A stretch of DNA of 45,657 nucleotides. Origin: Bdellovibrionales bacterium (GTDB taxonomy: Bacteria > Bdellovibrionota > UBA1018 > CAIMNF01). The stretch spans positions 1 through 45,657 of the forward strand of contig JAGWXK010000008.1 in NCBI GenBank assembly GCA_018969905.1. Reading direction: 5' to 3'. The notes beneath the pieces were generated by a model. That model saw only the letters and a program-made list of their open reading frames with translations. It was not told where the DNA came from and searched no databases. How positions within the stretch are numbered: position 1 is the stretch's first letter; each line of letters starts with the position of its first letter. The position numbers and the translations under genes were made by a program. This document shows, piece by piece, positions 7,305 through 25,100 of this stretch.

Positions 7305-7613
7305 CTAGTCCCTCAAAATCTGAATTTGATCCGAGTCTACTGTTCTCAAGGTCCTGAAAAGCGCGATCACCAGTCCGAGACCAACTGCAGACTCGGCTGC
7401 AGCAACCGTCATCACAAACAACACAGCAAGATGGCCGTCCAGCGAGTGATGGATTTTGGAGAAAGCGACAAAGCTCAAGTTCACTCCGTTCAACATCAAC
7501 TCAACACACATCAGCATCACAAGCAGGTTTTTGCGAATCAAAAGCCCAAGTAGGCCGATGCCGAAAATGACCATTGAAACAACCAACATCATCCAGGGCT
7601 CAAGTAGGCTCAT
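7305..7613 (-). CDS. nuoK: NADH-quinone oxidoreductase subunit K
   Basis: Small three-helix complex I subunit (102 residues) that forms part of the fourth proton path. The two conserved membrane glutamates are present at residues 38 (CVELMLNGVN) and 74 (AAAESAVGLG). The ATG at 7613 overlaps the nuoJ stop as ATGA, so translation is coupled. It is a useful internal reference because the nuo' paralogue (18770-19009) aligns over its whole length but lacks both glutamates. Confidence 0.97.
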   Translation of the reverse strand: MSLLEPWMMLVVSMVIFGIGLLGLLIRKNLLVMLMCVELMLNGVNLSFVAFSKIHHSLDGHLAVLFVMTVAAAESAVGLGLVIALFRTLRTVDSDQIQILRD

Positions 7614-8595: not shown

Positions 8596-8596
8596 A

Positions 8597-9688
8597 TCAG
8601 AGCACTCCTTTATAAATCAGGAAACCGGTCACAAGGACATTCAAGAGCCCGACGGGAAACAAAACCTTCCAACCGAGGTTCATCAGTTGATCGAAGCGAA
8701 ACCTTGGAAGCGTCCAGCGTACCCAAACGAAGAACCACATCCAGAAGGCCACCTTGATGATAAAAGACAAGCCCTGAAAAATGACTTCCACCAGGTTGGG
8801 ATCTGGAATCAGTCCCAATGATTGAACGTGGGAAACCAGCACTGAAAAAAACGGTAAAAGTTGCCACCCCCCAAAAAACAAGGTTGTGATCAACGCCGAG
8901 GCAACTGCCATATTGATGAATTCCGCCATCATGAATAGAGCGAATCTCATGGAACCGTACTCCAAGTGATATCCGGCAATCAACTCGGACTCCCCCTCAG
9001 GAAGATCAAACGGAAGGCGATTCGTTTCCGCGAAAACCGAAACGAGAAACAAAAGAAATCCGACCGGCTGAATGAAGATACCCCACTTGGGCACCGCAAT
9101 CGCTCCCAACGTGAAGAGAGTTTCTCCCTGCTCAAAAACAATGTCCCCCAGTTTCACGGATTGAAAAACCATCATCAGGCCAACTAGCGATAACCCGAGC
9201 GTGAGCTCATAACTGATCATTTGGGCTGAACTTCTGAGACTCCCCAGGAGCGAATAGTGATTATTAGAGGCCCAACCAGCCATGATAATTCCGTAAACGC
9301 CGAGTGATGCAATCGAAAAGCAGTAAAGAACCCCGACATCTAGATTCGCGATCTGGAAGTGGGTGGTCGTGCCGTCGAGCGTAAGGGATCCTGCAAACGG
9401 AATTACCGCAAAAGTCATGAAAGCCGGAATCACAGCGACCCAAGGGGCAATCGTGTAGTAAAATTTATTTACATGTCCTGGAGCTCGGTCTTCTTTGAAG
9501 ATAAACTTAATCACATCACAGGCGGCTTGGAACAAACCAAACGGCCCCATCCGGTTGGGTCCGAGCCGGTTTTGCATCAATGCCGAACCTCTGCGCTCCA
9601 CAAATAGCATGATCGGAACCGTGGCCAGTAATCCGGCGAGCACGATTCCAATCTTTATGAACATCATCATCGGTTCAAGACTGCTCAT
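8597..9688 (-). CDS. nuoH: NADH-quinone oxidoreductase subunit H
   Basis: Eight-helix subunit (363 residues) that forms the base of the quinone chamber and links the peripheral and membrane arms. Recognisable elements are FVERRGSALMQNRLGPNRMG near residue 30, the charged loop AETNRLPFDLPEGESEL near residue 220, and WVRWTLPRFRFDQLM near the C-terminus. The start ATG at 9688 overlaps the nuoG stop as ATGA. Its short paralogue at 19750-20547 keeps the first and last of these regions but not the charged acidic loop. Confidence 0.97.
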   Translation of the reverse strand: MSSLEPMMMFIKIGIVLAGLLATVPIMLFVERRGSALMQNRLGPNRMGPFGLFQAACDVIKFIFKEDRAPGHVNKFYYTIAPWVAVIPAFMTFAVIPFAGSLTLDGTTTHFQIANLDVGVLYCFSIASLGVYGIIMAGWASNNHYSLLGSLRSSAQMISYELTLGLSLVGLMMVFQSVKLGDIVFEQGETLFTLGAIAVPKWGIFIQPVGFLLFLVSVFAETNRLPFDLPEGESELIAGYHLEYGSMRFALFMMAEFINMAVASALITTLFFGGWQLLPFFSVLVSHVQSLGLIPDPNLVEVIFQGLSFIIKVAFWMWFFVWVRWTLPRFRFDQLMNLGWKVLFPVGLLNVLVTGFLIYKGVL

Positions 9689-11103
9689 GCGGTTACCTCA
9701 TTGTTTCGTTGATTCAGCATCAACATCAACATTTCACCAGTCGACTTACATCTTCCCCTGGGCAGCAAAGCGCGCTTCATACCTTGTGGAACTCCCTGGT
9801 GATTGATGACGGTTCCATCCTTTTCAAGAAAACTGAGGCCGGGCAGGATTGCATGGAAAAAGTTCCGTTCTTTCTCAAGGAATACACCGACTCCGTAAGC
9901 CTTTTTGGCTTCGATTCTGGGCAGTTCCGCACGCCCGCCACGAAACACAACCACCACGTCGGACTTTGCGCTTCCAAGAAGCGGAGAGATGCCGAGGGAC
10001 TCAGCACCCTTTAAATTCGCGGTTTTGCTCTTCATTTTCAATATCTGATCCCTCGGGCCATCCTGTCCTGAGGTTTCCACTCCCGGAGTCCCAAAACTCT
10101 GAATCTGAATCTTGGGCGACAAAGCCCGGGCGGCGTCTTGAATCGCCTTCATCTCCTCATTTGTTAGGTCGGTACCAACCAAAAAAAGCACACTGGCACC
10201 AGCTGCATCAGTCCGCAGCCCGGAGAGGAGCTCCTCCCACCTGGCAACGAGCCAAGAGTCTCCGGCTTTTTTCATCGGATCGACGATGCGGCTCGGATCC
10301 TGTACATATTGATAATTGAATCTGCCTTCATCACACATCCAGTACTTGTTGATCTCAAGATTCTCACGAGGCACACAGCGATAAACCACGTTCCCCTCAT
10401 GTTGAACCTCCATGTTGCAGCCCTTAGAGCATCCCTCACAGACCGTGGGCGTTTTTTTCAGCATCCACGCCCGCTTCTTGAATCGGAAATCCTTCAAAGT
10501 AAGTGATCCCGTAGGGCAAATATCGGAATAGTTGCCGGCATATTCGGTTTTCAACTGCTTCCCATCAATCGTTGTGATGTCGATATTGTTGCCGCGCTTA
10601 ATGGCAACCATCTCATGAATTCCGGCAACCTCATCCCCAAAGCGAATGCAGCGGGTACAGTGAATGCAACGATTCATGTTTTTCTGAATGACCGGCCCCA
10701 TGTCAACATCCACATAGGTTCGTCGCTCTTCGGAATGTCTCATGAACTCACTTCCGTGCCCGAAAGAGTTATCCTGTAGGTCACACTCCCCTGATTTGTC
10801 ACAAATTGGACAATCCAATGGATGATTCAAGAGTAAAAACTCCATCGTTCCGGCACGGCCCTTTTTAACGGCCTCGGACTGGGTTTTCACCACCATCCCC
10901 TCTGCCGCCTGTGTCGAACAGGCGGTCTGCAGCTTAGGCATCTTTTCCACTTCCACGTAACACATCCGACACTGGGCAACGACCGAAAGCCCAGGATGAT
11001 AACAAAAAACAGGAATTTCTATTCCGGCTCTTTTGGCAACTGAAACCAGGTTTTCTCCCGGCTTGAACTCCACTTCTTTTCCGTCAATGGTACACTTAGG
11101 CAT
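9685..11103 (-). CDS. nuoG: NADH-quinone oxidoreductase subunit G, short form with N7-type ligands
   Basis: Iron-sulfur subunit of the NADH dehydrogenase module, 472 residues compared with ~780-910 in many bacteria. Ligands are visible for the [2Fe-2S] cluster N1b (Cys34/45/48/62), for the His-containing [4Fe-4S] cluster (His94, Cys98/101/107) and for N4 (Cys146/149/152/196). Cys222/225/229/257 also form the C-x2-C-x3-C-x27-C pattern of the extra cluster N7. The molybdopterin-oxidoreductase-like part after N7 is reduced to about 200 residues. The start at 11103 overlaps the end of nuoF by 8 bases. Together with nuoE and nuoF it gives this complex I its NADH-oxidising arm, which the nuo' module lacks. 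Confidence 0.95.
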   Translation of the reverse strand: MPKCTIDGKEVEFKPGENLVSVAKRAGIEIPVFCYHPGLSVVAQCRMCYVEVEKMPKLQTACSTQAAEGMVVKTQSEAVKKGRAGTMEFLLLNHPLDCPICDKSGECDLQDNSFGHGSEFMRHSEERRTYVDVDMGPVIQKNMNRCIHCTRCIRFGDEVAGIHEMVAIKRGNNIDITTIDGKQLKTEYAGNYSDICPTGSLTLKDFRFKKRAWMLKKTPTVCEGCSKGCNMEVQHEGNVVYRCVPRENLEINKYWMCDEGRFNYQYVQDPSRIVDPMKKAGDSWLVARWEELLSGLRTDAAGASVLFLVGTDLTNEEMKAIQDAARALSPKIQIQSFGTPGVETSGQDGPRDQILKMKSKTANLKGAESLGISPLLGSAKSDVVVVFRGGRAELPRIEAKKAYGVGVFLEKERNFFHAILPGLSFLEKDGTVINHQGVPQGMKRALLPRGRCKSTGEMLMLMLNQRNNEVTA

Positions 11104-12376
11104 GGCGACTTTGTCCCTTCACGTAAGCATCAAATTCGGACCTGAATTTCTTCACAAAACTCTGGACAGGCATCGCTGCCGCATCCCCAAGAGCGCAAAG
11201 AGTCTTGCCTCCGATGTTGCCGGCAACATCCACCAGCAAGTCAATATCGGCGGGCTTCGCCTCACCATGAATCACTTTATGCAGAAGAGACTCCATCCAG
11301 TGGCAACCCTCGCGGCAAGGCGTACATTGGCCACATGATTCATGGGCATAGAATTTTGTGATTCGAAGCAGAAGCTTTACGAGATCGGTATCCTCATCGA
11401 TCACCATGATCGCAGCTGATCCCATCATCGTTCCAATTTTCATCAAGGGCTCAACATCATAAACAGCATCAATCTCATCCGCAGTGAGAACCGGAGAGGA
11501 TGAGCCGCCCGGAATTACTGCCTTGAGTTTTTTGCCCTTCCAAACGCCGCCACCCAAATCATCAATAATTTGCCTCAAGGTCATTGACCCGGCCGCCACC
11601 TCATAAACTCCCGGACGGTTCACATGACCGGAGAGTGAAATCAGCCGCGTACCCCCGGATTTGTCGATCCTTCCAAGTTTAGCAAAAACCTCCCCACCCA
11701 ACCGGATGATGTGAGGCACATTCGCAATGGATTCGACATTGTTTACAGCCGTAGGGCATGAAAACGCTCCGGAAACAGCTGGAAAAGGGGGTTTTACTCG
11801 GGGCTCACCGCGTTTCCCTTCGAGGGAATTCAACAGGCCGGTCTCCTCTCCGCAGATATAAGCTCCGGCCCCACGATGAACCGTGATTTCCAGGTCAAAT
11901 CCAGACCCGAAAATATCTTTTCCGAGATATCCCTTCGCACGAGCCTCTTCGATCGCTTCCTCTAGAAGCTGCGCTTCACGAACATATTCTCCACGGATGT
12001 AGACATAGGCGTGCTTGCAGCCGATGGCAAAGGATCCGATCAGAAGACCCTCAATCAAAAGGTGAGGGGTGTACCGGATGATTTGCCGGTCTTTGCAGGT
12101 TCCCGGCTCGGACTCGTCGGCGTTGCACACGAGGTATTTCGGCTTTTCGGAGTTCTTTGGAATGAAGCTCCATTTCATGCCCATGGGAAATCCCGCTCCA
12201 CCCCGCCCACGAATATTGGCTTTTTTTACCTCTTCTACAACCTGATCCGGCGCCATGCTACCAAGCACTTTTCTTGCAGCCTCGTATCCATTCATTTCTT
12301 TGAGGTAATAGTCCAATGTCCTATTCGAATCCTTCCAAAAGTGCTGAACAAAAAGGGTTTGTGGATTAGCGCTCAT
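11096..12376 (-). CDS. nuoF: NADH-quinone oxidoreductase subunit F, NADH/FMN-binding
   Basis: Subunit that binds NADH and FMN and carries cluster N3 (426 residues). The glycine-rich nucleotide site is at residues 57-69 (GRGGAGFPMGMKW). The FMN/NADH region GAGAYICGEETGLL is near 170-182. The N3 ligands Cys348/351/354 (CGQCTPCREG) and Cys394 (LCALGD) are all present. It overlaps nuoE by 11 bases and nuoG by 8. There is no counterpart in the nuo' cluster. Confidence 0.97.
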   Translation of the reverse strand: MSANPQTLFVQHFWKDSNRTLDYYLKEMNGYEAARKVLGSMAPDQVVEEVKKANIRGRGGAGFPMGMKWSFIPKNSEKPKYLVCNADESEPGTCKDRQIIRYTPHLLIEGLLIGSFAIGCKHAYVYIRGEYVREAQLLEEAIEEARAKGYLGKDIFGSGFDLEITVHRGAGAYICGEETGLLNSLEGKRGEPRVKPPFPAVSGAFSCPTAVNNVESIANVPHIIRLGGEVFAKLGRIDKSGGTRLISLSGHVNRPGVYEVAAGSMTLRQIIDDLGGGVWKGKKLKAVIPGGSSSPVLTADEIDAVYDVEPLMKIGTMMGSAAIMVIDEDTDLVKLLLRITKFYAHESCGQCTPCREGCHWMESLLHKVIHGEAKPADIDLLVDVAGNIGGKTLCALGDAAAMPVQSFVKKFRSEFDAYVKGQSRHA

Positions 12377-12851
12377 GCTTCACCTTCTCAATAAAATCAT
12401 TCATGGAATTGATGTCGAGATTTTCGATGTAATCATCATTGGCCATCATCACGGGGGCAGTCGTACACGCTCCGAGGCATTCTTCTTCTGAAAGAGTGAA
12501 GGCCCCATCAGGAGTGGTTTCACCACATTTCACTCCAAGCTTTTTTTCGGCGAACTCCATTAGTTCGTTCGCCCCCCTCAAACAGCACGCCACATTGGTA
12601 CAGAGCTTCAGGTGCATTTTTCCCACCGGCTTCAGGTTGTACATGGTGTAGAAACTCGCCACCTCCCGGATCTGGGCCTCATGAACCCCGATGTATTCTG
12701 CTATCTCTGCCAAAATCTCTTTCGGCAGCCATCCAAATTCGGCCTGCGCCTGATGCAGGGACGGAAGGATCAACGCCTTTCGATCGGGATATCTCGGCTC
12801 TTTCTGCCTCATTGCCTCGTAAAATTTTTCCGAAAGGAGTCTCTCTTTCAT
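12366..12851 (-). CDS. nuoE: NADH-quinone oxidoreductase subunit E, [2Fe-2S]
   Basis: Thioredoxin-fold [2Fe-2S] subunit (161 residues) of the NADH dehydrogenase module. The N1a ligands are Cys84 and Cys89 (LCTNVACCLRG) and Cys125 and Cys129 (ECLGAC). I start it at ATG 12851, which forms an ATGA overlap with the nuoD stop. The frame stays open upstream to 12953, but that extension lies inside nuoD, is rich in Arg/Gly/Cys and does not look like NuoE. The sequence from MKERLLSEKF matches the usual NuoE N-terminal helical bundle. Confidence 0.95.
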   Translation of the reverse strand: MKERLLSEKFYEAMRQKEPRYPDRKALILPSLHQAQAEFGWLPKEILAEIAEYIGVHEAQIREVASFYTMYNLKPVGKMHLKLCTNVACCLRGANELMEFAEKKLGVKCGETTPDGAFTLSEEECLGACTTAPVMMANDDYIENLDINSMNDFIEKVKHER

Positions 12852-14128
12852 CGATCCAGCTCTCCCGCAATTACGTTGATACTTCCAAGAGCAGCCACGA
12901 GGTCCGCAATATATTCTCCTTGAATCATGGGGTCGAGCCCCTGGTAATGCCAAAAAGAGGGTGATCGGATTCTCATACGATGAGCCATTGGGCCGCCCTT
13001 GCTGATGATGTAAAAGCCAAGTTCTCCATTGGCGGCCTCGAACGGGGTGTATGCCTCACCAACCGGAACATCAAAGCCCGTCATGAAAAACTTGAAATGA
13101 TGAATGAGTCCCTCCATGGTGTTGTATACTCTTTCTTTTTCTGGAATGCGGGTCCGCTTGTCATCGGCCCAAACGGGCCCCTTTTTAATTCGATCCGCAC
13201 ACTGAGTGAGAATGTTCAGACTTTGTTTTATCTCTTCAACGCGGACAAAATAGCGATCAAAAACATCTCCTGTCTGGGCTACAGGAACATCGAATTCCAT
13301 TTTGTCATAAAACATGCACGGCTGATCTCGTCTCAGATCAATGTCGAGTCCTGCTGCTCGAGCATTCGGCCCTGTATAGCTGTATCTCAGACAGTCTTCC
13401 TTGTTGAAGATTGCCACGCCCTTGGTTCGCTTCAGCCAGATCCGGTTTTCAGTCAGCAAGCGATCCATCTCCTCGATGACTTCCCGCGTTTGCTTGACCC
13501 AATCTTTCACCTCGCGCTCCCAACCCTCCGGTGCATCAGCCATGAGGCCTCCGATTCGTGTGTAGGAGGTCGTCAGCCTGGCGCCACAGAGCTTTTCAAT
13601 AAGCGTGTAAGCCCTTTCGCGCTGATGATATCCGTAAAGAAAATACGAAAAAGCACCAAGATCGACTGCATTGATCCCGATACAGATCAAGTGATCAATC
13701 ACTCTCGCCAGTTCTGCGCACATCATTCGTATCCACACCGCTCGCTCTGGAACCTCGACGCCCAGCAATCGCTCAACGGACATCGCGTAAGCGACATTGT
13801 TTGCGAGGGCGGAACAATAGTTCAAACGATCCGTATAGACTACGAATTGATGGTAGGTCCTGTTCTCACCAAGCTTCTCTTTCGCGCGGTGGGTATACCC
13901 GAATTCGCAAACTGATTTTTCAATGACCTCACCATTCAGCCTTGCCATACAACGAAAGGCGCCGTGCATTGCGGGATGCGTGGGACCGATATTCACTAGA
14001 ACCTTGGAGTCTTCGAAGATGTCGTCCGAATCCCTTTTCAGCGAAACATCATAGGTTGCTGGAAAGCCCCAACGGGAGACATCAAGGGGGGCATCCGTTC
14101 TGAAATTTTTGGAATTTTCCTGACTCAT
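12848..14128 (-). CDS. nuoD: NADH-quinone oxidoreductase subunit D
   Basis: The 49-kDa-type subunit (426 residues) that forms the quinone-reduction pocket next to cluster N2. Quinone-headgroup residues are present: His55 in GPTHPAMHG (residues 48-56) and Tyr104 in DRLNYCSALANN. The conserved C-terminus SINVIAGELDR is intact. It overlaps nuoC (ATGA at 14125-14128) and nuoE (ATGA). It is a stand-alone NuoD rather than a NuoCD fusion, since nuoC is a separate gene upstream. Confidence 0.97.
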   Translation of the reverse strand: MSQENSKNFRTDAPLDVSRWGFPATYDVSLKRDSDDIFEDSKVLVNIGPTHPAMHGAFRCMARLNGEVIEKSVCEFGYTHRAKEKLGENRTYHQFVVYTDRLNYCSALANNVAYAMSVERLLGVEVPERAVWIRMMCAELARVIDHLICIGINAVDLGAFSYFLYGYHQRERAYTLIEKLCGARLTTSYTRIGGLMADAPEGWEREVKDWVKQTREVIEEMDRLLTENRIWLKRTKGVAIFNKEDCLRYSYTGPNARAAGLDIDLRRDQPCMFYDKMEFDVPVAQTGDVFDRYFVRVEEIKQSLNILTQCADRIKKGPVWADDKRTRIPEKERVYNTMEGLIHHFKFFMTGFDVPVGEAYTPFEAANGELGFYIISKGGPMAHRMRIRSPSFWHYQGLDPMIQGEYIADLVAALGSINVIAGELDR

Positions 14129-14685
14129 TTGAACAGCTCCGGGTCGATTGGCTCGGGGGAAAGAAAAACCTGATAGCCCCGCAGTGGATAATCTTTTCGA
14201 AGAGGGTGGCCCTCCCAGCGTACGTCCATGAGAATCCTTCTCAGATCGGGATGGCCCTCAAAGCGTATTCCGAACATATCGAAAATCTCACGTTCGGCCC
14301 AATTCGCGCCCTCCCATAGAGGTATGAGCGAAGGGAAGAGCTCGCTTTCTGCGATTCGAATCTTAATGCGAAGCCTCACCTTGGTCGCAACACCCATCAA
14401 GTGAAGGATCAAATGAAAACGCTTCTCACCTCCCTCATCAGACGCCGTATAATCGGTAAGAAATGAAAGCCCATGAACTTCTTTCAGTTCCCGAAGAACT
14501 TCCAAAGCCCCCGTTTTTTCCAAAAACAAGGTCGGAATATCCACCGGATGGGCATCAGGAAGCAGAACCTCCTCAATATGGTCTGGAAACTTCGTCTTCA
14601 GGGCTTCGATCATCGAGCCCCACTGGGTTGAAAACTTTTCTTTCCAGCCTCCGTAAATTGTCGGAATCAGGGTTTGAACATTCAT
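14125..14685 (-). CDS. nuoC: NADH-quinone oxidoreductase subunit C
   Basis: The 30-kDa-type peripheral subunit (186 residues). The C-terminal family signature is clear: [22 protein letters not shown] followed by [12 protein letters not shown]. It starts at ATG 14685, overlapping the nuoB stop as ATGA. It helps hold NuoD, NuoB and NuoI together. No equivalent exists in the nuo' module, where the B-like gene runs straight into the D-like gene. Confidence 0.96.
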
Positions 14686-15185
14686 GAGCGTGACTCCTTC
14701 AGAGCCCGCTCTCTACGCTGTGAGTGCGTCTCACCCAAAGCGATCATATCCTTCAGGCGCAGCAGACCATTCAAAAGACCCTCGGGTGCGGGTGGGCATC
14801 CCGGCACATACACATCAACCGGCACGACCGTATCAATCCCTTGGGTGACACTGTAAACATTGAAAATACCTCCGGATGAAGCACATGCCCCCATGGAGAT
14901 CACCCACTTGGGATCGGCCATCTGATCATAAATGTTTCTCAACACCGGAGCCATTTTCAGGTTCACAATTCCCGCAACGATCAAGAGATCGCTTTGCCGG
15001 GGAGAAAAGCGGACAACCTCCGCTCCGAATCTTGCCATGTCATAGCCCGAAGCAAGGGTGGACATGAGCTCGATCCCACAGCAGCTCGTGCCGAAGGGCA
15101 GGGGAAAAAGGGAATGCTTCCTTGCCCAATTCACCATGTCTTCAAGCCTTGTTGTAAAAAAATCCGACGAGCCATCCTTACTCAT
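14682..15185 (-). CDS. nuoB: NADH-quinone oxidoreductase subunit B, cluster N2
   Basis: Carries [4Fe-4S] cluster N2, which gives electrons to quinone (167 residues). The tandem cysteines Cys35-Cys36 (GTSCCGIE), Cys101 (GACASSGG) and Cys130 (PGCPPAPE) make the four ligands. The start at 15185 is 3 bases after the nuoA stop, with GGGAG a few bases upstream. The gene is followed by separate nuoC and nuoD genes. Confidence 0.97.
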
Positions 15186-15188
15186 AAC

Positions 15189-15551
15189 TCACTCCCACTC
15201 CAGAGCGCCCTTGCGCAGAACGTACACATAACCGACAAAGAGCACCGCAACGAAGGCGAGCATCTCAACAAGGATGAAAGTCCCTGTACTCATGAACTTT
15301 TTGTAAACCACCGCCCAAGGGTAAAAAAATACGGTTTCCACATCAAAAAGCAAAAATAAGATCGCCACCAGATAGAAACGAACAGAGATTCTCTGTTTTT
15401 TTACGTTCTCATTGATGGGCACTCCGCATTCCGCAGGTGAGTCTTTTGTTTTATTGGGCAACTTCGGTCCAAGCCAAGTGGTAATCAGCAGCACGGCTCC
15501 GCCAATGCCCACTCCTGCTGCCATTAGGACCAGCACAGGAAGGTACTCCAT
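15189..15551 (-). CDS. nuoA: NADH-quinone oxidoreductase subunit A
   Basis: Three-helix subunit (120 residues) at the junction of the two complex I arms. The long first loop (SPAECGVP, carrying the family Cys) and the FDVETVFFYPWAVVYK motif are present. ATG 15551 has AAGGAA about 7 bases upstream. The preceding gap to the nuoN-like gene is only 36 bases and holds no hairpin or obvious promoter, so the canonical operon may be transcribed together with the nuo' genes upstream. Confidence 0.97.
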   Translation of the reverse strand: MEYLPVLVLMAAGVGIGGAVLLITTWLGPKLPNKTKDSPAECGVPINENVKKQRISVRFYLVAILFLLFDVETVFFYPWAVVYKKFMSTGTFILVEMLAFVAVLFVGYVYVLRKGALEWE

Positions 15552-15587: not shown

Positions 15588-16952
15588 TTACCACAAATTC
15601 AGGGGCGGATGACGATATAAAACCGCAATCAACTGCGGATGCAAGGAGGAGAGGGTAATGACTCCGATCAGATAAAAAACCAAAAAGAAGGCCTCGCCAG
15701 GAGTAAATGGCCTTTGATTCTCTTTGGAAACACGAACCAGAAGCACTTTTCCAATGATTTGAGTTGAAGCGATGAGCATTACCAGCCAGACCACCGCGAT
15801 CCCGATAGCCGAAATGAAATTGGAAGCACCCAATAAATCAGAGATCATCTGATAATATCGATCGCCCATTACAAGTGGGGGAGCGCCCGGAACGGCGATG
15901 AGGGCGAAAAGAATCAGGGTTTTATTTCTATACTCCGATTCCAGAAAGGCGTGAGAAAGCAATATGAAAGTAAGAAAGGTTCCAATGGTCAGAATGAACA
16001 AGCTAGGAATCGCCCGATCGCCTGGAAGAAGAATGGAAAATACCACCAAACCGATCAGGACGGGATATATGGCAGACAGCCAAGCGTGATGGTCACGCGT
16101 AACTATCGACTTAAGGGCGGACCTGAGGGTGATTGCAGAAATAGCGGCGCCAAGAAACCAACGAGGCATCTGATTGGACACTGCTGAAAAAGATTCCAGC
16201 ACCGGAACTCCAACCCTTGTCCAAAAAGCTATCAGCACAATCAGCTGGCCAAACCATGCCACCGCAAGCCCTAGAGGGCCTTTTCCCGTGTAACCACCGC
16301 TCGCAAGCGGCATCAAACCACACAAAACCACAAGGACAACCAGGGTCGCATGGGGCCAGCCCCCAGGCCCTGCCGCTTCCAAAGCAGTGCTCCACTCGGA
16401 AAACCTAACCGTGCGAAGGACGGAAGTGGAAAGAACGAACAGGATGGCGATCAGCAGTGACCAGGTTCCCATCCAAACCGACTTTTCCCTGAATACTTTC
16501 ACCCATGATTGAGAGCCTGCAGATTCGATGAAAATGACGCTGGAGGCGGAAAAATAAACCCCGAGAGAAGAGACAAGAAAGCCAACCAGGTTCTGCGAAA
16601 GCGCAACTCCACAGAGAAAGAGTGAGAAAAACTGAAGAAATAAAACAGCCCTCTGCTTGTCCCGCAAACTCAAATTTCCATGAAAAAACACCGAGAGCGT
16701 GAACCCTCCCAGAGACAATAGCGCAATCATCCGCAGAAAAAATGAAATGGAGTCGGACAAGACCATGGAGCCCGAAGCTTCAAAAAATGAAAGATCGGAG
16801 CGGAGAAAATAATAAACCAATCCAGAAAATGCCGAAATCGAAACAAGAATGGGATGGGATCCACGGGTGGGCATAAAAAACGCCGTCAGCAGAAGAGAAC
16901 CAAGAAGCAAACCCGTGATCAGGACTTCCGGAATGAAGTTCAAAAGAATCAC
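15588..16952 (-). CDS. NuoN-like divergent membrane protein of the nuo' module
   Basis: A 454-residue polytopic membrane protein with about 13 helices. The start is GTG 16952, overlapping the upstream stop as GTGA, with GGGAGG 6 bases upstream. The frame is open to 17126, but that part lies within the preceding gene and is not membrane-like. Similarity to NuoN is spread along the chain: PEVLITGLLL at the start, SFFLRMIALLSLGGF near the third helix pair, and a PGAPPLVMG segment where NuoN has AGMPFTVGF. The first-channel Glu position reads SSLG, and the channel Lys position reads LVVLCGLMP. I infer a NuoN descendant that can no longer move protons through the usual path. It is the last gene of nuo', 36 bases before nuoA. 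Confidence 0.8.
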   Translation of the reverse strand: MILLNFIPEVLITGLLLGSLLLTAFFMPTRGSHPILVSISAFSGLVYYFLRSDLSFFEASGSMVLSDSISFFLRMIALLSLGGFTLSVFFHGNLSLRDKQRAVLFLQFFSLFLCGVALSQNLVGFLVSSLGVYFSASSVIFIESAGSQSWVKVFREKSVWMGTWSLLIAILFVLSTSVLRTVRFSEWSTALEAAGPGGWPHATLVVLVVLCGLMPLASGGYTGKGPLGLAVAWFGQLIVLIAFWTRVGVPVLESFSAVSNQMPRWFLGAAISAITLRSALKSIVTRDHHAWLSAIYPVLIGLVVFSILLPGDRAIPSLFILTIGTFLTFILLSHAFLESEYRNKTLILFALIAVPGAPPLVMGDRYYQMISDLLGASNFISAIGIAVVWLVMLIASTQIIGKVLLVRVSKENQRPFTPGEAFFLVFYLIGVITLSSLHPQLIAVLYRHPPLNLW

Positions 16953-17941
16953 TTTAGCCCTCCCATCAGAAACCAGAGCATTCCGCCCCCGGAAACCCCT
17001 TGAACTGCAACCACCGTCCAAAACCGGATTCTCGCTTTTCGATTTGAAACCTGGGGTGTTTTGGGATGACAGAGAACCAGCGTAATTGCTTGCATGATGA
17101 ACCCGATGAATCCAAGAGCTGCCCAACCAAGACCCAGCTCAATCAGAACCTTCACCATAAAGTAAAGCGCCATGAAGCCGACCAGCCCGGGAAATCCAAG
17201 CGACGAAACCCTGGAAAAAACAAAATGTCCTTTTCCAAGTTGTAAGGCGCAGGTCATCAACACAACCGAACTCACAGCAAACGTGGCGATTGCGGCCAGC
17301 GCCTGACTCATTAAGGACTCGCTTGGAGCCGCCAAAACCAAAAGCGCAAAACCAATCCAGGAATGGCTCCAAAAAACCATAACAGAGCGCACCCTAAGTC
17401 GGGCAAGGCCCATCACTCCTGCGACAAGTACGGTAATACTACCAACGGACAGAAGGGCGTAGCGCCAACCCTCTTCCAAGTCTCCCGAAATCTCCTCTTT
17501 CCATCGCGAAAGAATGTAAATTGCGGCAAAAGCCGGAATGACCACAGATCCCAGGAATGCCCTCAGAGTGAGTCTCTCGTAAAAACGCGCGAAAAGCAGG
17601 GTGGTAACTCCATTTGGAATGAGCAACAACAAACCAAAGAGCCCAAGAATCCTTCCCTGCCAGCACGAGCCCAATGCATGTCCGAAGATTGCAATCACAC
17701 CCCCGGCCATGACCATCGCAAATCTTTTTTGTGCCACCCCGTTGTTTTCACGCCTCATTCCGACCGAAGCCTGAACAAATGCAAAAATCTGCACGAGAAG
17801 CAACATCAGAAGCCCGAACGAAATGGAAGTGAAACAAAAAATCAGAAGACACAGAAGAACGGGCACCAAATGCTGCCTTGAAACACAAAAAAGCCATGAA
17901 AGGACAACCATCGCACCCCAAGGAGAATATTCGAAAATCAA
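16949..17941 (-). CDS. NuoM-like divergent, internally shortened membrane protein of the nuo' module
   Basis: A 330-residue hydrophobic protein starting at TTG 17941, with a TTGA overlap with the previous gene and GGGGGTGA just upstream. Similarity to NuoM can be traced. A segment ending ARFYERLTLRAFLGS matches NuoM GERQKATAVFRFFLMSFLGS. SHSWIGFALLVL matches SISHLGFVMLGV. SSLGFPGLVGFMALYF matches ASVSLPGTLNFAGEFL. At the Glu144 position it has Gly (GLLLIP against ESVFIP). About 100 residues covering the channel Lys and broken helix are missing between these blocks, and the second Glu is also lost. The subunit therefore looks like a structural remnant of an antiporter-like protein that is still translated within the operon. 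Confidence 0.75.
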   Translation of the reverse strand: MIFEYSPWGAMVVLSWLFCVSRQHLVPVLLCLLIFCFTSISFGLLMLLLVQIFAFVQASVGMRRENNGVAQKRFAMVMAGGVIAIFGHALGSCWQGRILGLFGLLLLIPNGVTTLLFARFYERLTLRAFLGSVVIPAFAAIYILSRWKEEISGDLEEGWRYALLSVGSITVLVAGVMGLARLRVRSVMVFWSHSWIGFALLVLAAPSESLMSQALAAIATFAVSSVVLMTCALQLGKGHFVFSRVSSLGFPGLVGFMALYFMVKVLIELGLGWAALGFIGFIMQAITLVLCHPKTPQVSNRKARIRFWTVVAVQGVSGGGMLWFLMGGLK

Positions 17942-18783
17942 AATTCACCCCCATGCAAAAGCAATCCGGACAAAACACTGGTGATGACAAGCCCCATGAT
18001 CCACCAAAAAACCTCTTTGATTCCGGAATTGATGTCTGGCGCGACCGTAACGGACTCTCTCCTGGCCCAGGGTTCATCTCCTGAAACCAATCGACCACCC
18101 CAAAAAATAAAACTTTCCAAACGAGGCCTCAATCGCTGAAAGAAGCCAAAGAATCCTTCAGGACGCAAAAGACCCCACAGTGTCGTGGAAAAGAGTGATG
18201 CAAAAAGGAATCCCCCCGCAATCGTCAACTCCGGATTCGCAATCATGATCCCAATCTCGTCCTTGAAACTGGAAAGAATCAGTAGGGTAGCCAAGACTTC
18301 AGCCCATGACAGGACTCGATGCTCCCCCGGGATTTCTGTCCAGCGCGACACTTCAACCAAAATCCAATAGGAGGCGTGCCCGACAAGGGCAACTTCAAGG
18401 TATTCAGGATTGGGATGGTACTGCCTCAGAAACAGAATCGCGGGCAAGGTCCCGAGGGCACTTCCTCCAAAGTTCGCCGCAATCAAAATCACTCCGAAGA
18501 CCGAAAAAAACGCTCGGACAGGATCTGGTGCAATCGCACCCGAGAGAATGAAAAAAACACCCGCAAAATCCTTGATCTGAATCCATTTACCGCACCCCGC
18601 ACCCATTCGATGCCAGACCACCATGGCGGCAACAAAACACGGGATTACGGGTCCGTGAAAAAAAGCTCCCACCAGGACCATCAGAAACGGAAGAACTCTT
18701 CGTTCTCGGACCAAGGAAAAACCGCAAATCAAAGAAAGAAGAACCGCAGTTTGATCAAATCGGGTGAGTTCAATGCCGGTCAT
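17938..18783 (-). CDS. Membrane protein in the NuoL position of the nuo' module
   Basis: A 281-residue protein with about 8 hydrophobic segments. I choose ATG 18783 (MTGIELTRFD) over an upstream TTG at 18810 because GGGTGG lies just upstream; the ATG overlaps the K-like gene by 14 bases. It lies exactly where nuoL lies in the canonical operon but is less than half its length. Similarity to NuoL is weak: VALVGHASYWILVEVSRW may match FLGWEGVGLASYLLIGFW. None of the NuoL channel Lys/His motifs is visible. Assignment rests mostly on gene order. The C-terminal ~70 residues (PRLESFIFWGG...DINSGIKEVFWW plus one helix) loosely recall the NuoL C-terminal anchor. Confidence 0.6.
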   Translation of the reverse strand: MTGIELTRFDQTAVLLSLICGFSLVRERRVLPFLMVLVGAFFHGPVIPCFVAAMVVWHRMGAGCGKWIQIKDFAGVFFILSGAIAPDPVRAFFSVFGVILIAANFGGSALGTLPAILFLRQYHPNPEYLEVALVGHASYWILVEVSRWTEIPGEHRVLSWAEVLATLLILSSFKDEIGIMIANPELTIAGGFLFASLFSTTLWGLLRPEGFFGFFQRLRPRLESFIFWGGRLVSGDEPWARRESVTVAPDINSGIKEVFWWIMGLVITSVLSGLLLHGGEF

Positions 18784-19009
18784 TTTCCACCCGAACTTCA
18801 ACGCGAACAAATGCGTAAAGGGCCATTTGAATCACCACCAACAACAAAACAACTCCCTCGAGGGGCAAGACTTCTGAAAACCGTTCACAACACACAAACA
18901 CGAGAACCAAAAGAACCCTCATTGCACCTCGGGCGATCTCCAAGGAATCGATCGCGATAAACATCGAGTAAAATCCAAAAAAGAAAACACCCATGGAAAG
19001 AAGGATCAT
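18770..19009 (-). CDS. NuoK-like small membrane protein of the nuo' module
   Basis: A 79-residue protein with three hydrophobic helices that aligns end to end with NuoK of the adjacent operon: ILLSMGVFFFGFYSM against LVVSMVIFGIGLLGL, then a matching second and third helix. The start ATG 19009 forms an ATGA overlap with the J-like gene; longer starts lie inside that gene. The two NuoK membrane glutamates (38 and 74) correspond to hydrophobic residues here (about Met30 and Leu64). It keeps the NuoK fold and place in the operon but not the proton-path acids. Confidence 0.75.
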   Translation of the reverse strand: MILLSMGVFFFGFYSMFIAIDSLEIARGAMRVLLVLVFVCCERFSEVLPLEGVVLLLVVIQMALYAFVRVEVRVENDRH

Positions 19010-19368
19010 CGCCTTCTCCTTTCCACGCCCAGAGCCACCATCAGCATTGCACACAAAAAACCAAGGAGAACAACCACGGGCAAGGCCCAATCCTGCCCCT
19101 CTGCAACGGTCTTCACATCCAAACGGGGCCGTTCGCCAATCAGTGCCGGCAACAAAAACACAACCATCAAGAGCGCCAGTACCGAAGACCTAATTTTTGA
19201 AAGGAGTGGGACTTTTTTCTCGGTGAATCCGAGCAAAAGCCTGGTTCTTCGCAATTGAAACTCAAAAAGGAACCCGAGCACAAATACCGCGATTCCAAGA
19301 AATAGCTCGCGAGTGCCCAGCCAAATCGATACTCCGGCAAGTATTGACAGATCGATCCAGAGGATCAC
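19006..19368 (-). CDS. NuoJ-like membrane protein of the nuo' module
   Basis: A 120-residue protein with about four helices, starting at GTG 19368 (GTGA overlap with the ferredoxin-like gene and a strong AGGGGGGAG just upstream). The clearest match to NuoJ is at the C-terminus: DVKTVAEG...VVLLGFLCAMLMVALGVERRR against NVKAIAES...FLILAAIVATIALAKRK. The NuoJ third-helix signature (LVYTGAIMVLFVF) is not seen, and the protein is 60 residues shorter. Identification combines this C-terminal similarity with its position between the I-like and K-like genes. Confidence 0.7.
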   Translation of the reverse strand: MILWIDLSILAGVSIWLGTRELFLGIAVFVLGFLFEFQLRRTRLLLGFTEKKVPLLSKIRSSVLALLMVVFLLPALIGERPRLDVKTVAEGQDWALPVVVLLGFLCAMLMVALGVERRRR

Positions 19369-19757
19369 AGCTCCCCCCTTCCAAAACTCATCTTCAGGTC
19401 TTTCTTGTCAAACACTGCCGCCTGTACCTCTTTGGTTTGAATCAGTGAATTTGGCTCACAGACATCAACACAAAGACCGCAGAACACACAATTAGAAAAA
19501 TCAATGTCAAATTTCGAAACCCATGGCCGATTGTTTCTCTCCTTGATGTGTGAATCCACTTCGATGCAACTTGTGGGACAAGCCCTTGCGCAATCCCCAC
19601 ACCCGGTACACTTGTCAATTTCATTGAAGACCAAACCTCGAGCTCGGGCCGGAAAATCATCCTTTCCCCTTGAAGAAACAGGATCAGGATAAAACTCAGT
19701 ATCCACTTTGCGAGTCCCCCGAATGTTAAAAAAATGCTCAAGAACCCTCTTAAACAA
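19365..19757 (-). CDS. NuoI-like 2x[4Fe-4S] protein of the nuo' module
   Basis: A 130-residue ferredoxin-like subunit. Both cluster motifs are complete: Cys50/53/56/60 (CTGCGDCARACP) and Cys90/93/96/100 (CVFCGLCVDVCE). It should therefore bind two [4Fe-4S] clusters equivalent to N6a and N6b. The start is TTG 19757: no ATG or GTG occurs before the first cluster motif, and a perfect AGGAGG lies 8 bases upstream. It overlaps the H-like gene by 8 bases and the J-like gene by 4. The N-terminal region is shorter than in canonical NuoI, so the membrane-contacting helix may differ. With NuoB' it makes a continuous iron-sulfur path, although no donor subunit is encoded nearby. Confidence 0.85.
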   Translation of the reverse strand: MFKRVLEHFFNIRGTRKVDTEFYPDPVSSRGKDDFPARARGLVFNEIDKCTGCGDCARACPTSCIEVDSHIKERNNRPWVSKFDIDFSNCVFCGLCVDVCEPNSLIQTKEVQAAVFDKKDLKMSFGRGEL

Positions 19758-20547
19758 AGCCGCTTCCTCCTGACATCAGGGCAAACGCCAACATGACCAC
19801 AAGCCAAAAAACACCCGTAAGAGGCAAAAGATACGTCATGGAAACCCTCAGTAGATCCTCTTGCCTTAGTCTTGGAAAATAAATGGCAAAAAGACGTGAG
19901 ACGAGGAATAAAAGTCCAGCCTTCAGGTTAAAATCAAGAAAGTACTCGCCTCCACCAAGAAATAGCCGCACAGTAACCATGCACCATCCGTAGAAACGGA
20001 CTGACTCCAACCAGGATGCCCGCTCCAAAAAACCCCTGAAGGGATGCTCTTGAAACAAAATCATTCCAGCGATCTGAAAAGGAATCACAAAAATCAAGTG
20101 AAGAGGGGACCAGGAAATTCGCCCTAAATCCGCGGTCCCGGACAGACTGAATCCTCCGATGATGCACAAAAGAGAGATCCCTGATGCGACCGCGAATGCA
20201 ACCTGCCTTTGATCCGAATCAATCCTCGCAAGTACGCCTTCTTTTCCCGTGGTCATTGCCGCCAACGAGAAACCCGCAAGTACCATCCACGGAAACACGA
20301 GATATTCGAGCCTCAAGACATATAAAAATGGCAGAGCACATTGAAACCCAAAAAAAAGCCACACCCACGGAGACCTTCTGGTTCTGACTTCAAGGAGTGT
20401 ATCCACCCAAGTCTGCCAAAAAAAACCGGTAAGTGCGATATCCTTGCCCACTCTGGATTCGTGACGGGCCTGTACTCGCTCTGTCCACGAATAAACCAAA
20501 AAAGACACAGGAAAAATCGAGAACAAAGTGAAGGCAACATCAATCAT
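19750..20547 (-). CDS. NuoH-like membrane protein of the nuo' module
   Basis: A 265-residue membrane protein starting at ATG 20547 (ATGA overlap with the D-like gene). The N-terminal part aligns with NuoH: YSWTERVQARHESRVGKDIA then a WQTWVDTLLE region, against FVERRGSALMQNRLGPNRMG then LFQAACDVIK. The C-terminal part also aligns: RLFAIYFPRLRQEDLLRVS against WVRWTLPRFRFDQLMNLG. It is about 100 residues shorter than NuoH, and the acidic quinone-chamber loop (NRLPFDLPEGESEL in the true NuoH) is not recognisable. It probably anchors the D'/B'/I' iron-sulfur arm to the membrane, but I doubt that it forms a normal quinone entry tunnel. Confidence 0.8.
   Translation of the reverse strand: MIDVAFTLFSIFPVSFLVYSWTERVQARHESRVGKDIALTGFFWQTWVDTLLEVRTRRSPWVWLFFGFQCALPFLYVLRLEYLVFPWMVLAGFSLAAMTTGKEGVLARIDSDQRQVAFAVASGISLLCIIGGFSLSGTADLGRISWSPLHLIFVIPFQIAGMILFQEHPFRGFLERASWLESVRFYGWCMVTVRLFLGGGEYFLDFNLKAGLLFLVSRLFAIYFPRLRQEDLLRVSMTYLLPLTGVFWLVVMLAFALMSGGSGFV
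19766..19771 (-). promoter_or_regulatory. Shine-Dalgarno deciding the TTG start of the NuoI-like gene
   Basis: Perfect AGGAGG on the - strand, 8 bases before TTG 19757. It decides an otherwise uncertain non-ATG start and argues that the nuo' genes are still translated. Confidence 0.75.
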
Positions 20548-21557
20548 CGATCTACCTCCGAAACAGAAATAGACAAACTCTCCAAAATCAACGGAAGGTC
20601 TTCAATCGACTCCCCCTCGAGTGCTGGAAACATCGCCTCCTTGATCTTGTCCGATGGAGCTTGTACAGCGAAGGTTTCGATCCGGTGCTCCCGGTCAAGG
20701 GTCAATTCCACCTTCCAATTTCCCCGAATGGTTTCGAGCACCTCTTCCACCCTGACATCCGGAGAGCTTTCTGGGAGTTTGTGTCGGTAAACCCCGGCGG
20801 GGCTCTGCCGAATGAGTTCTGCAAGCGCCGCGGAGATCTCCCTGCAGCGCTCTAGTGAAAAATGAAGCCTTGACTCCACGTGACTCGCCTGACCATAACG
20901 TGTGCTTTCGATTGCCGATTGACTCACAAAGCCATACTCACCACCATCCAGAACAACACCCAAAGAACTCAAGCGATTGTGAAAGGGGTGAGTCCAGCAA
21001 AAAAGTCCGCGTATGCGGTCATGATCCTTAAGAAAAGTTTCAAGCCAAGACTCCAGCCGCACCTGAAATCCCTCAGTCAAATCATAGCGGGCTCCGCCGG
21101 GCAAAAGATAAAAATATCCGTATCTCGAACCGGAAAGAAGCTCAAAAAGATCAAGGAGTGTTTCCCTGTGTTTTAAAATGGAATGGTAAAGAATCCTGAT
21201 CCCGAGTCTCCAAGCCATTCTTGAGAGGTATTTGAGCTGAAAATTCAACTCGCTCAGTTGGCTCGAAATCTCTCTCAACCACAAAACCCGCTCTCCCACC
21301 TCGATGCCCACGGCAGCTTCGATCGCTTCACCGTACAGCCGATCCAGCAACAAAGCGCTCTCGGGCTCGATCCGACTAAAAATGATCTGTGCGGATGAAT
21401 AGTGCTTTCCAAGCATTTTTGATTCAATCTCTCGAGAGGCGAAACCGAATCCCGCCTCCAATTCGCGAATGACATCGCCATACATTCCCAAACGCAGTCT
21501 CATTGGCCCCGGCAGCCATTCGTGCACCGGACCAATCTCAAGGGTCTGCTGAATCAC
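20544..21557 (-). CDS. NuoD-like protein of the nuo' module, quinone ligands substituted
   Basis: A 337-residue soluble protein homologous to the 49-kDa subunit, starting at GTG 21557 (GTGA overlap). GPVHEWLPG (residues 9-17) aligns with NuoD GPTHPAMHG, and the quinone-binding His is Pro16 here. SRIEPESALL aligns with DRLNYCSALA, and the quinone-binding Tyr is Pro65. The middle block ending FSLERCREISAALAELI matches the NuoD helix FVRVEEIKQSLNILTQ. The C-terminus SLSISVSEVDR matches SINVIAGELDR, including the final Asp-Arg. It lacks the two CxxC pairs of [NiFe] hydrogenase large subunits, so it is not a hydrogenase. I infer a NuoD scaffold without an ordinary quinone site. Confidence 0.85.
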   Translation of the reverse strand: MIQQTLEIGPVHEWLPGPMRLRLGMYGDVIRELEAGFGFASREIESKMLGKHYSSAQIIFSRIEPESALLLDRLYGEAIEAAVGIEVGERVLWLREISSQLSELNFQLKYLSRMAWRLGIRILYHSILKHRETLLDLFELLSGSRYGYFYLLPGGARYDLTEGFQVRLESWLETFLKDHDRIRGLFCWTHPFHNRLSSLGVVLDGGEYGFVSQSAIESTRYGQASHVESRLHFSLERCREISAALAELIRQSPAGVYRHKLPESSPDVRVEEVLETIRGNWKVELTLDREHRIETFAVQAPSDKIKEAMFPALEGESIEDLPLILESLSISVSEVDR

Positions 21558-21937
21558 GGCTGCACCTCACGCAAGGAAATAACACCATTCATGATTGCTT
21601 CAGGTCTAGGAGGGCATCCTGTGACGTAGACATTCACTGGAAGCGCACCGACTCCGGCACCAGGAAACAAACCACCTCCGCATGCGCAGGTCCCCACGGC
21701 CATGACATATTTCGGCGAGGGCATGGCTTCGAAAAACTTCAAAACTTCGACTTGAAGAACTGAATTCAAAGATCCTTGAATGATCAAGAGGTTTGCCTGC
21801 TCGCCTTGCTCAGCCGGAACACAACCAAGCCGCTCCAGATCATAGCGACTGGACTCAGTTTGAATCCAATCATCACCACAACAAGAAATGCCAACGCGCA
21901 TGTACTTCAAAGTAGGCTTAAGGGGACTCATGATCAT
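21554..21937 (-). CDS. NuoB-like [4Fe-4S] protein of the nuo' module
   Basis: A 127-residue protein with all four N2-type ligands: Cys19-Cys20 (GISCCGDD), Cys84 (GTCACGGG, with an extra Cys86) and Cys108 (VTGCPPRPE). It is shorter than NuoB (167) at the N-terminus and in one loop. The start is placed at ATG 21937, inside the end of the upstream small gene; ATG 21931 is a possible alternative. Because the cluster ligands are fully kept while the neighbouring quinone pocket is changed, the cluster may have a different terminal acceptor or a structural role. Confidence 0.87.
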   Translation of the reverse strand: MIMSPLKPTLKYMRVGISCCGDDWIQTESSRYDLERLGCVPAEQGEQANLLIIQGSLNSVLQVEVLKFFEAMPSPKYVMAVGTCACGGGLFPGAGVGALPVNVYVTGCPPRPEAIMNGVISLREVQP

Positions 21938-22142
21938 CTTTCTTCGTTGACTCGTGCGTTGCGAGAAAGAACGACAAAAACACTACCATCATGACGAAAA
22001 TCAAGATTAAATACGGAATGATCCGGATTCGCTCCGTTACAAATACCGGTACAGTCACAAGCATCGCAACCCAAAGGTAAACGACAACTTGAGTGAACTG
22101 TGTGGTTTTGAGTTCAAAGGGCAAAATTCTTTTCGGATCCAT
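21918..22142 (-). CDS. Small two-helix membrane protein, first gene of the nuo' module
   Basis: A 74-residue protein with two hydrophobic helices (about residues 20-35 and 41-60), a basic turn between them (TERIRIIP) and a charged His/Asp/Lys C-terminus. It occupies the nuoA position but I see no convincing NuoA motif (no FDVE..F.YPW). It could be a strongly reduced NuoA or an unrelated small subunit. ATG 22142 lies only a few bases after a candidate promoter, with no clear Shine-Dalgarno. It overlaps the B-like gene by 20 bases. Confidence 0.6.
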   Translation of the reverse strand: MDPKRILPFELKTTQFTQVVVYLWVAMLVTVPVFVTERIRIIPYLILIFVMMVVFLSFFLATHESTKKDDHESP

Positions 22143-22154: not shown

Positions 22155-22183
22155 AGGCTACTGAGAATGAAAGGGCGAGTCAA
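22155..22183 (-). promoter_or_regulatory. Candidate promoter for the nuo' (and perhaps whole nuo) operon
   Basis: On the - strand TTGACT (22183-22178) and TAGCCT (22160-22155) are spaced by exactly 17 bases in the 40-base gap between divergent mfd and nuo'. The -10 fits only 3 of 6 consensus bases. Transcription would begin about 5-7 bases before ATG 22142, giving an almost leaderless message. The dnaA upstream region shows a similar TTGTCT-17-TAACCT. Confidence 0.35.
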
Positions 22184-25100
22184 TGCCTCGTGGCGGCCAA
22201 GAGTTAAAATTCTACTCTCCTCTGAATCAGGCTCTTGCCTCAGTGGAGCGTGCCCGATCAAACCCTGGATCGATTCAGGTACTTTGCTTTCCCAGAGCGG
22301 AGTGGATTGATGATTTCCAACCCCTAATCGAGTGTCTGATAGAGCCTGGGGCCGAGGGCACCTCACCGATCGACGTTTGTATTTGGAGCCCCTGGGAACA
22401 CTCACCGTATTCACCAATTGCATCCTCCGTGAATCAAAGACGCGAACGACTTAGAACCCTTTCCGCGCTTCATCATCGCAGAAAATCAATGATCATTCTC
22501 TCCTCCGCGGAAACATGGAAATTGCCCACCATTCCCTATGACGAATACGCCGAGTCAATTCTTAATTTCTCCGCGGGCGAGGAACCGGGGAGCCGGGACT
22601 TCCTGAAAAGGAAATTGAAATCCCTAGGTTATCTTCCATCTGATCTTGTGGAAGAACCCGGGCAGTTCGCACTGCGTGGCGAGATCCTGGATATTTTCGA
22701 TCCCGGACGCAGGCTTCCGAATCGGATTGAGTTTTTCGATACGGTTGTGGAGTCAATCCGTACCTTCCACCCGGAAACCCAGCGTACACTGAGGAACAAT
22801 GCCGTGATCAACACGCTAAGCATCCACCCGGCAGAAGAGATCCTTTTTCCCTGGGATCAGACAGAGGCGGTTCTCGAGAAAATCAAAACCTACGCAGACC
22901 AGGAACAAATCTCGAGAAAAATACGTGACCCCATTTTTGAGAACGTGCGGAATGGCATTTTGCCCGAACACCACCGGTATTGGTTCCCATTCACCTACCG
23001 AACCATGGCAACGCTTGAAAACCATTTGCCAAAAGACGCGATCCGAATCCTTTTCGAACCAGAGCAGTTTTCAGCCGAGTTCGAAAGATTTATTTCAGGC
23101 ATGGAAAAGGACAAGGCAAAATATCCATCGCCCTACTGGATCACTCCGAACCTAGAGCGCCTCTTTCCGGATGCTTCAAGCAAGTCAATCTCCACCCTCA
23201 ATCATGCGGATTTAATTGTTCGCACCAGTCCGGACTCTCCCTTGGTCGCCTCACCTCTGATCGCCGAGCAGATTCACCCGGACCAGATTAATCCGTCAAA
23301 AATTCGTGCTTGGCTCGAAGAAGGCTTCTTGGTCTGGATCGGCTGTCGCGGACTAAGCCACCAAGAGCGGATTCGCTTTTTGCTAAAAAACGAATCCAAA
23401 AGTCCGGGGTTCCGAATCCTTTCCCACGATTGCGGAGAGTCGCTTATTTTTCCAGCTCAGAAGCTCCTGGTCCTTTCAGAAACCCTTCTTTTTGGATCAA
23501 ATAGGCTCGCGCGACCCGCTCCCTCGGGGGCCCACCCTCGATTTGACACTAAGGGCGATGGCCTAGAGTTCCGTCATCACGAAGATCTCTCAGTGGGAGA
23601 CCTGGTGGTTCACGCCGTTCATGGAGTGGGAAGATATGTCGGCCTTCAGGAAATCCGATCGGGCGACAAGCATCTTGGCGAATATCTTCTTCTAGAGTAC
23701 GCCGGCGGAGACAAGCTTTACGTCCCAATCTATCGCCTCAACACGATCCAGCGTTACATCACCTCCGGAGAGTCCGGCTCGCTCGACAAGCTGGGCACGG
23801 GTCAGTTCGAGAAAGCCAAACAGAAGGCTCGCGAATCCGCGAGAAAACTTGCGATTAACCTCGTAGACATTTATGCAAGGCGGGCTTTCATGAAAGGTCC
23901 GAAATTTTTACCTCGTGATGAGCTATATGATGAGTTTTGTGATTCATTCGAATTCACCGAAACGGAGGGACAGCTTCGCGCAACCCAGGAGGTTCTTTCG
24001 GATCTTGAGAGCGGAAGGCTTCTTGATCGGCTCGTTTGCGGTGACGTGGGTTTTGGAAAAACCGAGGTGGCAATTCGCGCGGCGTTCCAGGCCGTTCAGA
24101 GCGGCCTTCAGGTCGCAGTATTGGTTCCAACGACACTTCTCGCGTTTCAACACGAACAATCTTTTCGCCGAAGAATGGAGTCTCACCCGATTCGAACTGA
24201 ATCACTCTCCCGCTTCAAATCAAAAAAACAACAATCTGAACTCCTGAAAGACCTGCATTCCGGAAAAATCGACATCATGGTCGGAACCCACCGACTGCTT
24301 TCAAAGGATGTCGAGTGGAGCCGCCTGGGTCTTTTGATCGTGGATGAGGAGCATCGCTTCGGGGTGGAACACAAGGAAAAAATCAAAGCCATTCAAGCGA
24401 ACACCCATACCCTCACTCTCTCGGCAACGCCGATTCCCCGCACGCTGAATATGGCTCTCTCGGGCCTTAAGGACATCAGCACAATCAAAACTCCACCCAC
24501 CAACAGACAGCCCATCAAAACCTATGTATCCAACTACTCGCCAGAGATTGTGAAATCCGCGATTGAAGCCGAGCTGTCAAGAGGAGGTCAGGTATTCTAC
24601 CTTTACAACCGCGTTCAATCCATTCACGCAAAGGCCGAGGAAATACGAAAATGGATTCCTCATGCCAAAGTCCTCGTGGCCCACGGCCAGATGTCCGAGA
24701 CCGAAATCGAGGAGAAAATGCTCGAATTTTATCAAGGGCGCGCCCAGGTGCTGGTTTGCACCACCATCATCGAGTCGGGAATTGACGTGCCCAATGCCGG
24801 AACAATACTGATTCATCGGGCAGACCAGTTGGGCTTGGCCCAACTTTATCAGATCCGGGGGCGCGTAGGTCGAAGTCACAGAAAAGCCTTTGCCTATTTG
24901 CTCGTTGAGGAAGATCAATCCCTCAGCCGGGAAGCAAAAATGCGCCTGGACGTGCTTCAGCGGTTCGTTGAACTCGGAAGCGGCTTTCAAATCGCATCTT
25001 TTGACCTTGAAATCCGAGGCGGCGGCAATCTTCTGGGAGGCGAACAATCAGGCCACATTGCCACCGTCGGCCTCGACCTGTTTACGAAACTTCTCGAAGA

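Follow-up and report, generated by a model that had tools for sequence, protein, structure and literature searches.

The 45,657-nucleotide stretch of DNA analysed here (the window), contig 24 of the 2.73-Mb draft genome of a Bdellovibrionales bacterium, carries a second complex I operon next to the canonical nuoA-N operon. We found that this second operon, with ten genes (A', B', D', H', I', J', K', L', M' and N') at 15588-22142 on the minus strand, belongs to a degenerate, order-wide paralogue of complex I in relatives of predatory bacteria, which is under selection and retains an intact electron wire. Its sequence suggests, with a probability of about 0.55, that it derives by reduction from an 11-subunit complex I and that its product transfers electrons from a soluble donor through iron-sulfur (Fe-S) clusters without pumping protons. 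The ten genes are intact open reading frames with overlapping ends; mfd diverges upstream of A', and the canonical operon starts 36 bp downstream of N' on the same strand. In the features below, TM stands for predicted transmembrane helices, aa for amino acids, and names such as H2 and N2 for the second-operon copies in other families of the order.

21918..22142, minus strand: A', 74 aa, about 2 TM; positional equivalent of NuoA, with orthologues in the genus
21554..21937, minus strand: NuoB', Pfam Oxidored_q6 (1.8e-18); all four Cys ligands of cluster N2 present
20544..21557, minus strand: NuoD', 337 aa; Pfam Complex1_49kDa (4.3e-15)
19750..20547, minus strand: NuoH', 265 aa, about 6 TM versus 8; NADHdh (1e-5), just under the cut-off; hhalign to H2 96-99.6%
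19365..19757, minus strand: NuoI', TIGR01971 (4.1e-20), below the cut-off of that family; both CxxCxxCxxxC sets (N6a, N6b)
19006..19368, minus strand: J', 120 aa, about 3 TM versus 5; positional NuoJ, with orthologues in the genus
18770..19009, minus strand: K', 79 aa, 3 TM; positional NuoK; E36 position not acidic
17938..18783, minus strand: L', 281 aa, about 8 TM versus 15-16; positional NuoL
16949..17941, minus strand: NuoM', 330 aa, about 11 TM; Pfam Proton_antipo_M (1.8e-5), above the cut-off; hhalign 97.8%
15588..16952, minus strand: NuoN', 454 aa, about 14 TM; hhalign to N2 98.9% probability over 442 columns
22183..25626, plus strand: mfd, TIGR00580 (8.6e-289); divergent neighbour marking the locus
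2544..15551, minus strand: canonical 14-gene nuoA-N operon, used for comparison and separate from the degenerate complex

In support of homology to complex I, NuoB, NuoD and NuoI homologues are present with the ligands of clusters N2, N6a and N6b; the assignment of the cysteines to these clusters, like that of the NuoD His and Tyr as quinone ligands, is one that we presume. Matches above the cut-off were obtained for B', D', I' and M' and one just below it for H', and A', J', K', L' and N' fell into no accepted Pfam family. N', M' and H' were tied to complex I subunits by profile; A', J', K' and L' of the window were assigned by position only, and direct profile links of these four to their canonical counterparts, such as A' to NuoA and J' to NuoJ, failed. 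A Foldseek search with the N' model gave complex I chains as its first 17 hits, most of them carrying the label N or 2 and all of them weak matches (E 0.04-0.8), and searching PDB sequences with the M' profile gave no match. L' had a bridging match (97.9%) to a 466-aa protein of genome G006 and no link to NuoL by sequence or fold, Foldseek giving nothing meaningful. One orthologue of L' (L036:11775-12614, plus strand) matched HlyIII below threshold (24.0 bits, cut-off 26.2), which is probably a chance match of membrane proteins.

The hallmark residues of proton pumping, a Glu pair in NuoK and a Glu/Lys pair plus a central Lys or His in NuoL, NuoM and NuoN (roles as given in the accessible text of PMC9271201 and PMC13073174), are not found as a set in the window's copies. 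A preliminary description had assigned their loss to 16949-19009, a span that holds M', L' and K' but leaves N' outside, and had located the missing NuoN' Glu at SSLG and Lys at LVVLCGLMP; the alignment of N' with the full-length NuoN2 profile agreed, with the Leu of 'SSLG' at the E133 position and a gap beside 'LVVLCGLMP' at K217, and also placed Leu at K247 and Tyr at K395. M' was alignable only over 83-209, with M2 209-335, where Leu replaces K234 and Phe replaces K265; its E144 position, given as Gly in the preliminary description, lies outside this part and was uncharged in 35 of 35 full-length relatives. Hydrophobic replacement of both NuoK' glutamates, as first described, held for the E36 position (small or hydrophobic residues) but not for the E72 region, which reads 'VVIQMAL' in the window and contains a Gln, in an alignment of K' to NuoK that has no statistical support. 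L', which has 281 residues against 615 in the canonical protein, as had been noted, shows no NuoL signature. In NuoD', the quinone His224 position is Pro and the Tyr273 position is lost. Among the sequences of the genus compared, the Cys ligands were present in 9/9 B' and 9/9 I' proteins.

Comparison of orthologues, which the preliminary description had proposed, revealed the same loss across the order; the loss of path residues without stop codons was borne out for the antiporter-like subunits and K, in genes under selection, but it predates the window's genome. Other families of the order have A2 B2 C2 D2 H2 I2 J2 K2 L2 M2 N2 at this locus, with near-normal lengths and without E, F and G, so that most relatives have the 11-subunit composition (A-D and H-N); the window's operon, with ten genes, is also without C. 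A NuoN2 profile located the second operon beside mfd in 40 of 42 listed same-order genomes from other families, the two misses being genomes 71-75% complete (10 unlisted genomes, whose kinship was not placed, gave no match), and the operon adjoins the canonical one throughout the order. Residues were counted over the second-operon copies of the order, n being the sequences without a gap at the position and canonical comparison rows being few (3-6). NuoK kept E36 in 0/31 copies (24 Gln) and E72 in 0/31 (20 Gln); NuoM kept E144 in 0/35, K234 in 0/35 (35 Arg), K265 in 2/35 (29 Pro) and E407 in 3/38; and NuoN kept E133 in 3/40 (24 Gln) and K217 in 0/40 (23 Gln). For NuoL, where the mapping is least certain (L2 matched no Pfam family; full-length L2 aligned with the outgroup NuoL profile at 99.7%), E144 was kept in 0/29, K229 in 1/30 (20 Gln; the single case, in G039, depends on the alignment), H254 in 0/30 and K399 in 0/30. 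The order-wide changes were charge-neutral (E to Q, K to Q) or conservative (K to R). The quinone ligands of NuoD were likewise missing from nearly all copies, with H224 kept in 0/29 (24 Pro) and Y273 in 3/29 (G014, G023 and G019). Fe-S ligands were retained in 111/112 cells for the NuoB Cys and 255/255 for the NuoI Cys. Because the same loss occurs order-wide in genes under purifying selection, we consider it more than chance.

NuoD' orthologues were found in nine of 11 same-genus genomes and in the only same-family genome, and the gene order of the primed operon was conserved wherever a contig covers the locus (K' of G011 was identified by reading frame). For the genome pair G010-G001, the ratio of non-synonymous to synonymous substitution rates (dN/dS) was 0.018-0.052 for all ten primed genes versus 0.006-0.055 for eight canonical genes; the statement rests on this pair because dS was saturated for many pairs involving the window. 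In the genus genomes examined, the primed genes showed no frame break. The ten primed genes behave as functional proteins under purifying selection, and a pseudogene operon was rejected on the basis of the intact frames, the dN/dS values and the mfd synteny. In G005 and G008, which are sisters on the canonical-subunit tree (support 0.999), mfd lies beside nuoA with none of the ten primed genes between them and the canonical operon is kept, representing a single clean loss of the primed operon.

In genomes from other classes of the phylum, A H J K L M N come next after mfd (its identity confirmed for one), and B, C, D and I lie in a separate operon. NuoH and NuoM trees joined the second operon of the order to this mfd-locus operon, and a foreign-gene island was rejected in view of these trees, the selection and the mfd synteny. 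The outgroup mfd-locus arms retain the path residues of K, L, M and N, and quinone H224 and Y273 are present in the five type-1 NuoD operons examined in other classes; because of this, the ancestor of the second operon was likely a working 11-subunit complex I. Subsequent shrinkage forms a series, from G029 (L 544 aa) through G016 (L 529 aa, no C) and G012 (L 414, M 353 and N 389 aa, no C) to G006 (L 466 aa) and the remaining members of the genus (about 280 aa in L and about 330 in M). A simple hydropathy count gave, for A, H, J, K, L, M and N, respectively, 2, 6, 3, 3, 8, 11 and 14 helices in the window's genus and 3, 8, 5, 3, 15-16, 14 and 14 in canonical and full-length second copies, the arm of the genus having lost NuoC and about 16 predicted helices. 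Judging from these sequences, residue loss preceded truncation of the arm and began before the window's genus.

The stepwise series G029, G016, G012/G006 and rest of genus, together with fast divergence of the membrane subunits, isolated in-frame stops and outright loss in two sisters, would also fit a relic in slow decay, whose translated but functionless genes are heading for a deletion of the G005/G008 type. We regard this as improbable given the low dN/dS of all ten genes, the kept cluster cysteines, the unbroken frames in the genus and the persistence of the operon across the order. Another explanation is that the second complex, or parts of it, assists the downstream canonical complex I, as an accessory or in its assembly (in mixed complexes, as a docking platform or as an assembly factor), with the arm kept for structure. 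Two same-strand operons that are only 36 bp apart here and adjacent throughout the order would suit such a partner, as would E-to-Q and K-to-Q changes that neutralise charge at nearly constant size; it is nevertheless unlikely, since G005 and G008 keep the canonical operon without any of the ten genes, since complete retention of the Fe-S ligands is left unexplained and since in other classes the B, C, D and I genes lie in an operon apart from the orthologous arm. Retention for structure, the purpose named in the preliminary description, is one possibility only; the observation itself was real, but was placed too narrowly and over-read as to purpose, and is partly confirmed.

In the electron-transfer reading that we prefer, NuoI' would take up electrons from a soluble donor of low potential, for example ferredoxin, proposed because E, F and G are absent; the electrons would then pass along N6a-N6b-N2 and leave where B', D' and H' meet, for an acceptor that is not a normally bound quinone, with no proton pumping on electron transfer. 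In the accessible text of PMC11238625, the donor of 11-subunit enzymes is unsettled, with ferredoxin a main candidate. Since the wiring is kept and the proton and quinone residues are lost, electron movement without pumping is probable, and more than pumping appears to have changed, because the NuoD quinone His/Tyr are gone and subunit C is absent. More tentatively, and at somewhat under even odds, the operon may encode a selectively maintained Fe-S conduit in which coupling was lost first and the arm was pared later, with a non-quinone acceptor and an arm serving a non-proton purpose.

Several points weigh against the electron-transfer reading. The NuoN2 position 247 is Lys in 1/40 and Arg in 32 copies (33/40 basic), and position 395 is Lys in 29/40 and Arg in 9 (38/40 basic). 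In E. coli NuoN, E133A is silent, and K247A and K395A are severe and the most harmful Ala mutants (accessible text of PMC13073174); because full-length relatives are basic at these two sites, they may have some proton function, and complete loss of the NuoN basic residues, the last to go, is firm only for the window's genus. Family f3 is intermediate: some of its copies retain E133, K265 and E407, with N E133 and M K265, H322 and E407 kept in G014, and the three NuoD copies with Tyr273 (G014, G023 and G019) belong here as well. The deletion in G005/G008 shows that the operon is dispensable. From the window to G009, identity was 53% for L', 61% for M' and 62% for N' versus 93% for canonical F, indicating fast divergence (canonical B and D were excluded; the locus used contains only primed paralogues). 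In-frame stops occur in single second-operon copies of other families, in D2 of G017 (L059) and in N2 of G157 (G157:C3) and G185 (G185:C8), possibly through local decay or sequencing errors. AlphaFold models of N' (5 sequences; mean pLDDT, the model confidence score, 49.7) and L' (6 sequences; 55.7) were too poor for judging buried charges. In addition, electron transfer, its donor and acceptor and the loss of pumping are inferred, whereas the set of genes, the lost residues, the kept ligands, the purifying selection and the stepwise reduction along the order were observed directly.

Pumping of protons or of another ion might continue through rearranged buried charges or chains of Gln and water, for which the basic residues of N2 at 247 and 395 and the conserved charges near predicted helix cores of L' (R26, E27, K71, D72 and E162) could be cited. 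This is very unlikely, considering that both NuoN basic residues are lost in the window's genus, that the quinone ligands which normally drive pumping are lost, and that a crude hydropathy-based count found 0 conserved core charges in M' and 1 in N' (7 and 4 in the canonical proteins); the search for compensating charges suggested in the preliminary description thus revealed no conserved charged axis in either subunit.

The window's operon shares its subunit order with the canonical 14-subunit NDH-1 of this genome and that of E. coli, and its B, D, H, I, M and N are homologous by profile, but it is without E, F, G and C and has lost K E36/E72, M K234/K265, N E133/K217/K247/K395 and D H224/Y273. 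The NDH-1 of cyanobacteria and plastids is a further comparison to complex I without E, F and G. Ehr (energy-converting hydrogenase-related) complexes are complex I relatives in which active-site function and the [NiFe] ligands were lost and the complex was kept; unlike these, the ancestor of the second operon was likely a complex I with NuoD-type His/Tyr, and it was quinone ligands and the proton path that were lost. Metazoan complex I still pumps. Its ND2 subunit is truncated in higher metazoans, with TM1-3 missing (accessible text of PMC13073174 and PMC3046159), a similar loss of helices from an antiporter-like subunit, whereas truncation in the window's operon appears to follow path-residue loss in all subunits. 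The system of Desulfitobacterium hafniense DCB-2 (accessible text of PMC11238625) resembles the order-wide relatives, which have the subunits A B C D H I J K L M N and no E, F or G, conserved Fe-S ligands in B and I, and intact homologues in other classes; unlike it, the order-wide copies lack the quinone His (and mostly the Tyr) and nearly all path residues, and in the window C is missing too, with A, H, J, L and M shortened. The literature searches made found no description of a second, non-pumping complex I in Bdellovibrionales.

Charged residues of the membrane arm have usually been studied by single mutants; here nearly all were removed together, along with the quinone ligands. With the wire kept, the proteins under selection, intermediate forms on a single tree and a relative that is still intact at this locus, these operons may provide a natural set of uncoupled variants and make testable what a complex I arm does without pumping.

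In the canonical operon of the window, the key residues of K, L and M are intact. Canonical NuoN (2544-3995, minus strand) has Thr or Ser in the window's genus (Thr in the window) at the position of the E. coli central Lys247, the other path residues seen being intact. Canonical NuoG (9685-11103, minus strand) is 472 aa long, and its family match covers only the first 328 residues, the C-terminal part of longer NuoG proteins being missing or replaced. Elsewhere, L081, L085, L092 and L095 (families f10/f21) carry two membrane-subunit sets (A H J K L and onward) in tandem, with path residues intact where compared, and G046 (family f15) has at L130:8904-11411 a lone trio resembling NuoB, NuoD and NuoI, with a 536-aa D-like protein, which is possibly another relative of complex I or of a hydrogenase.

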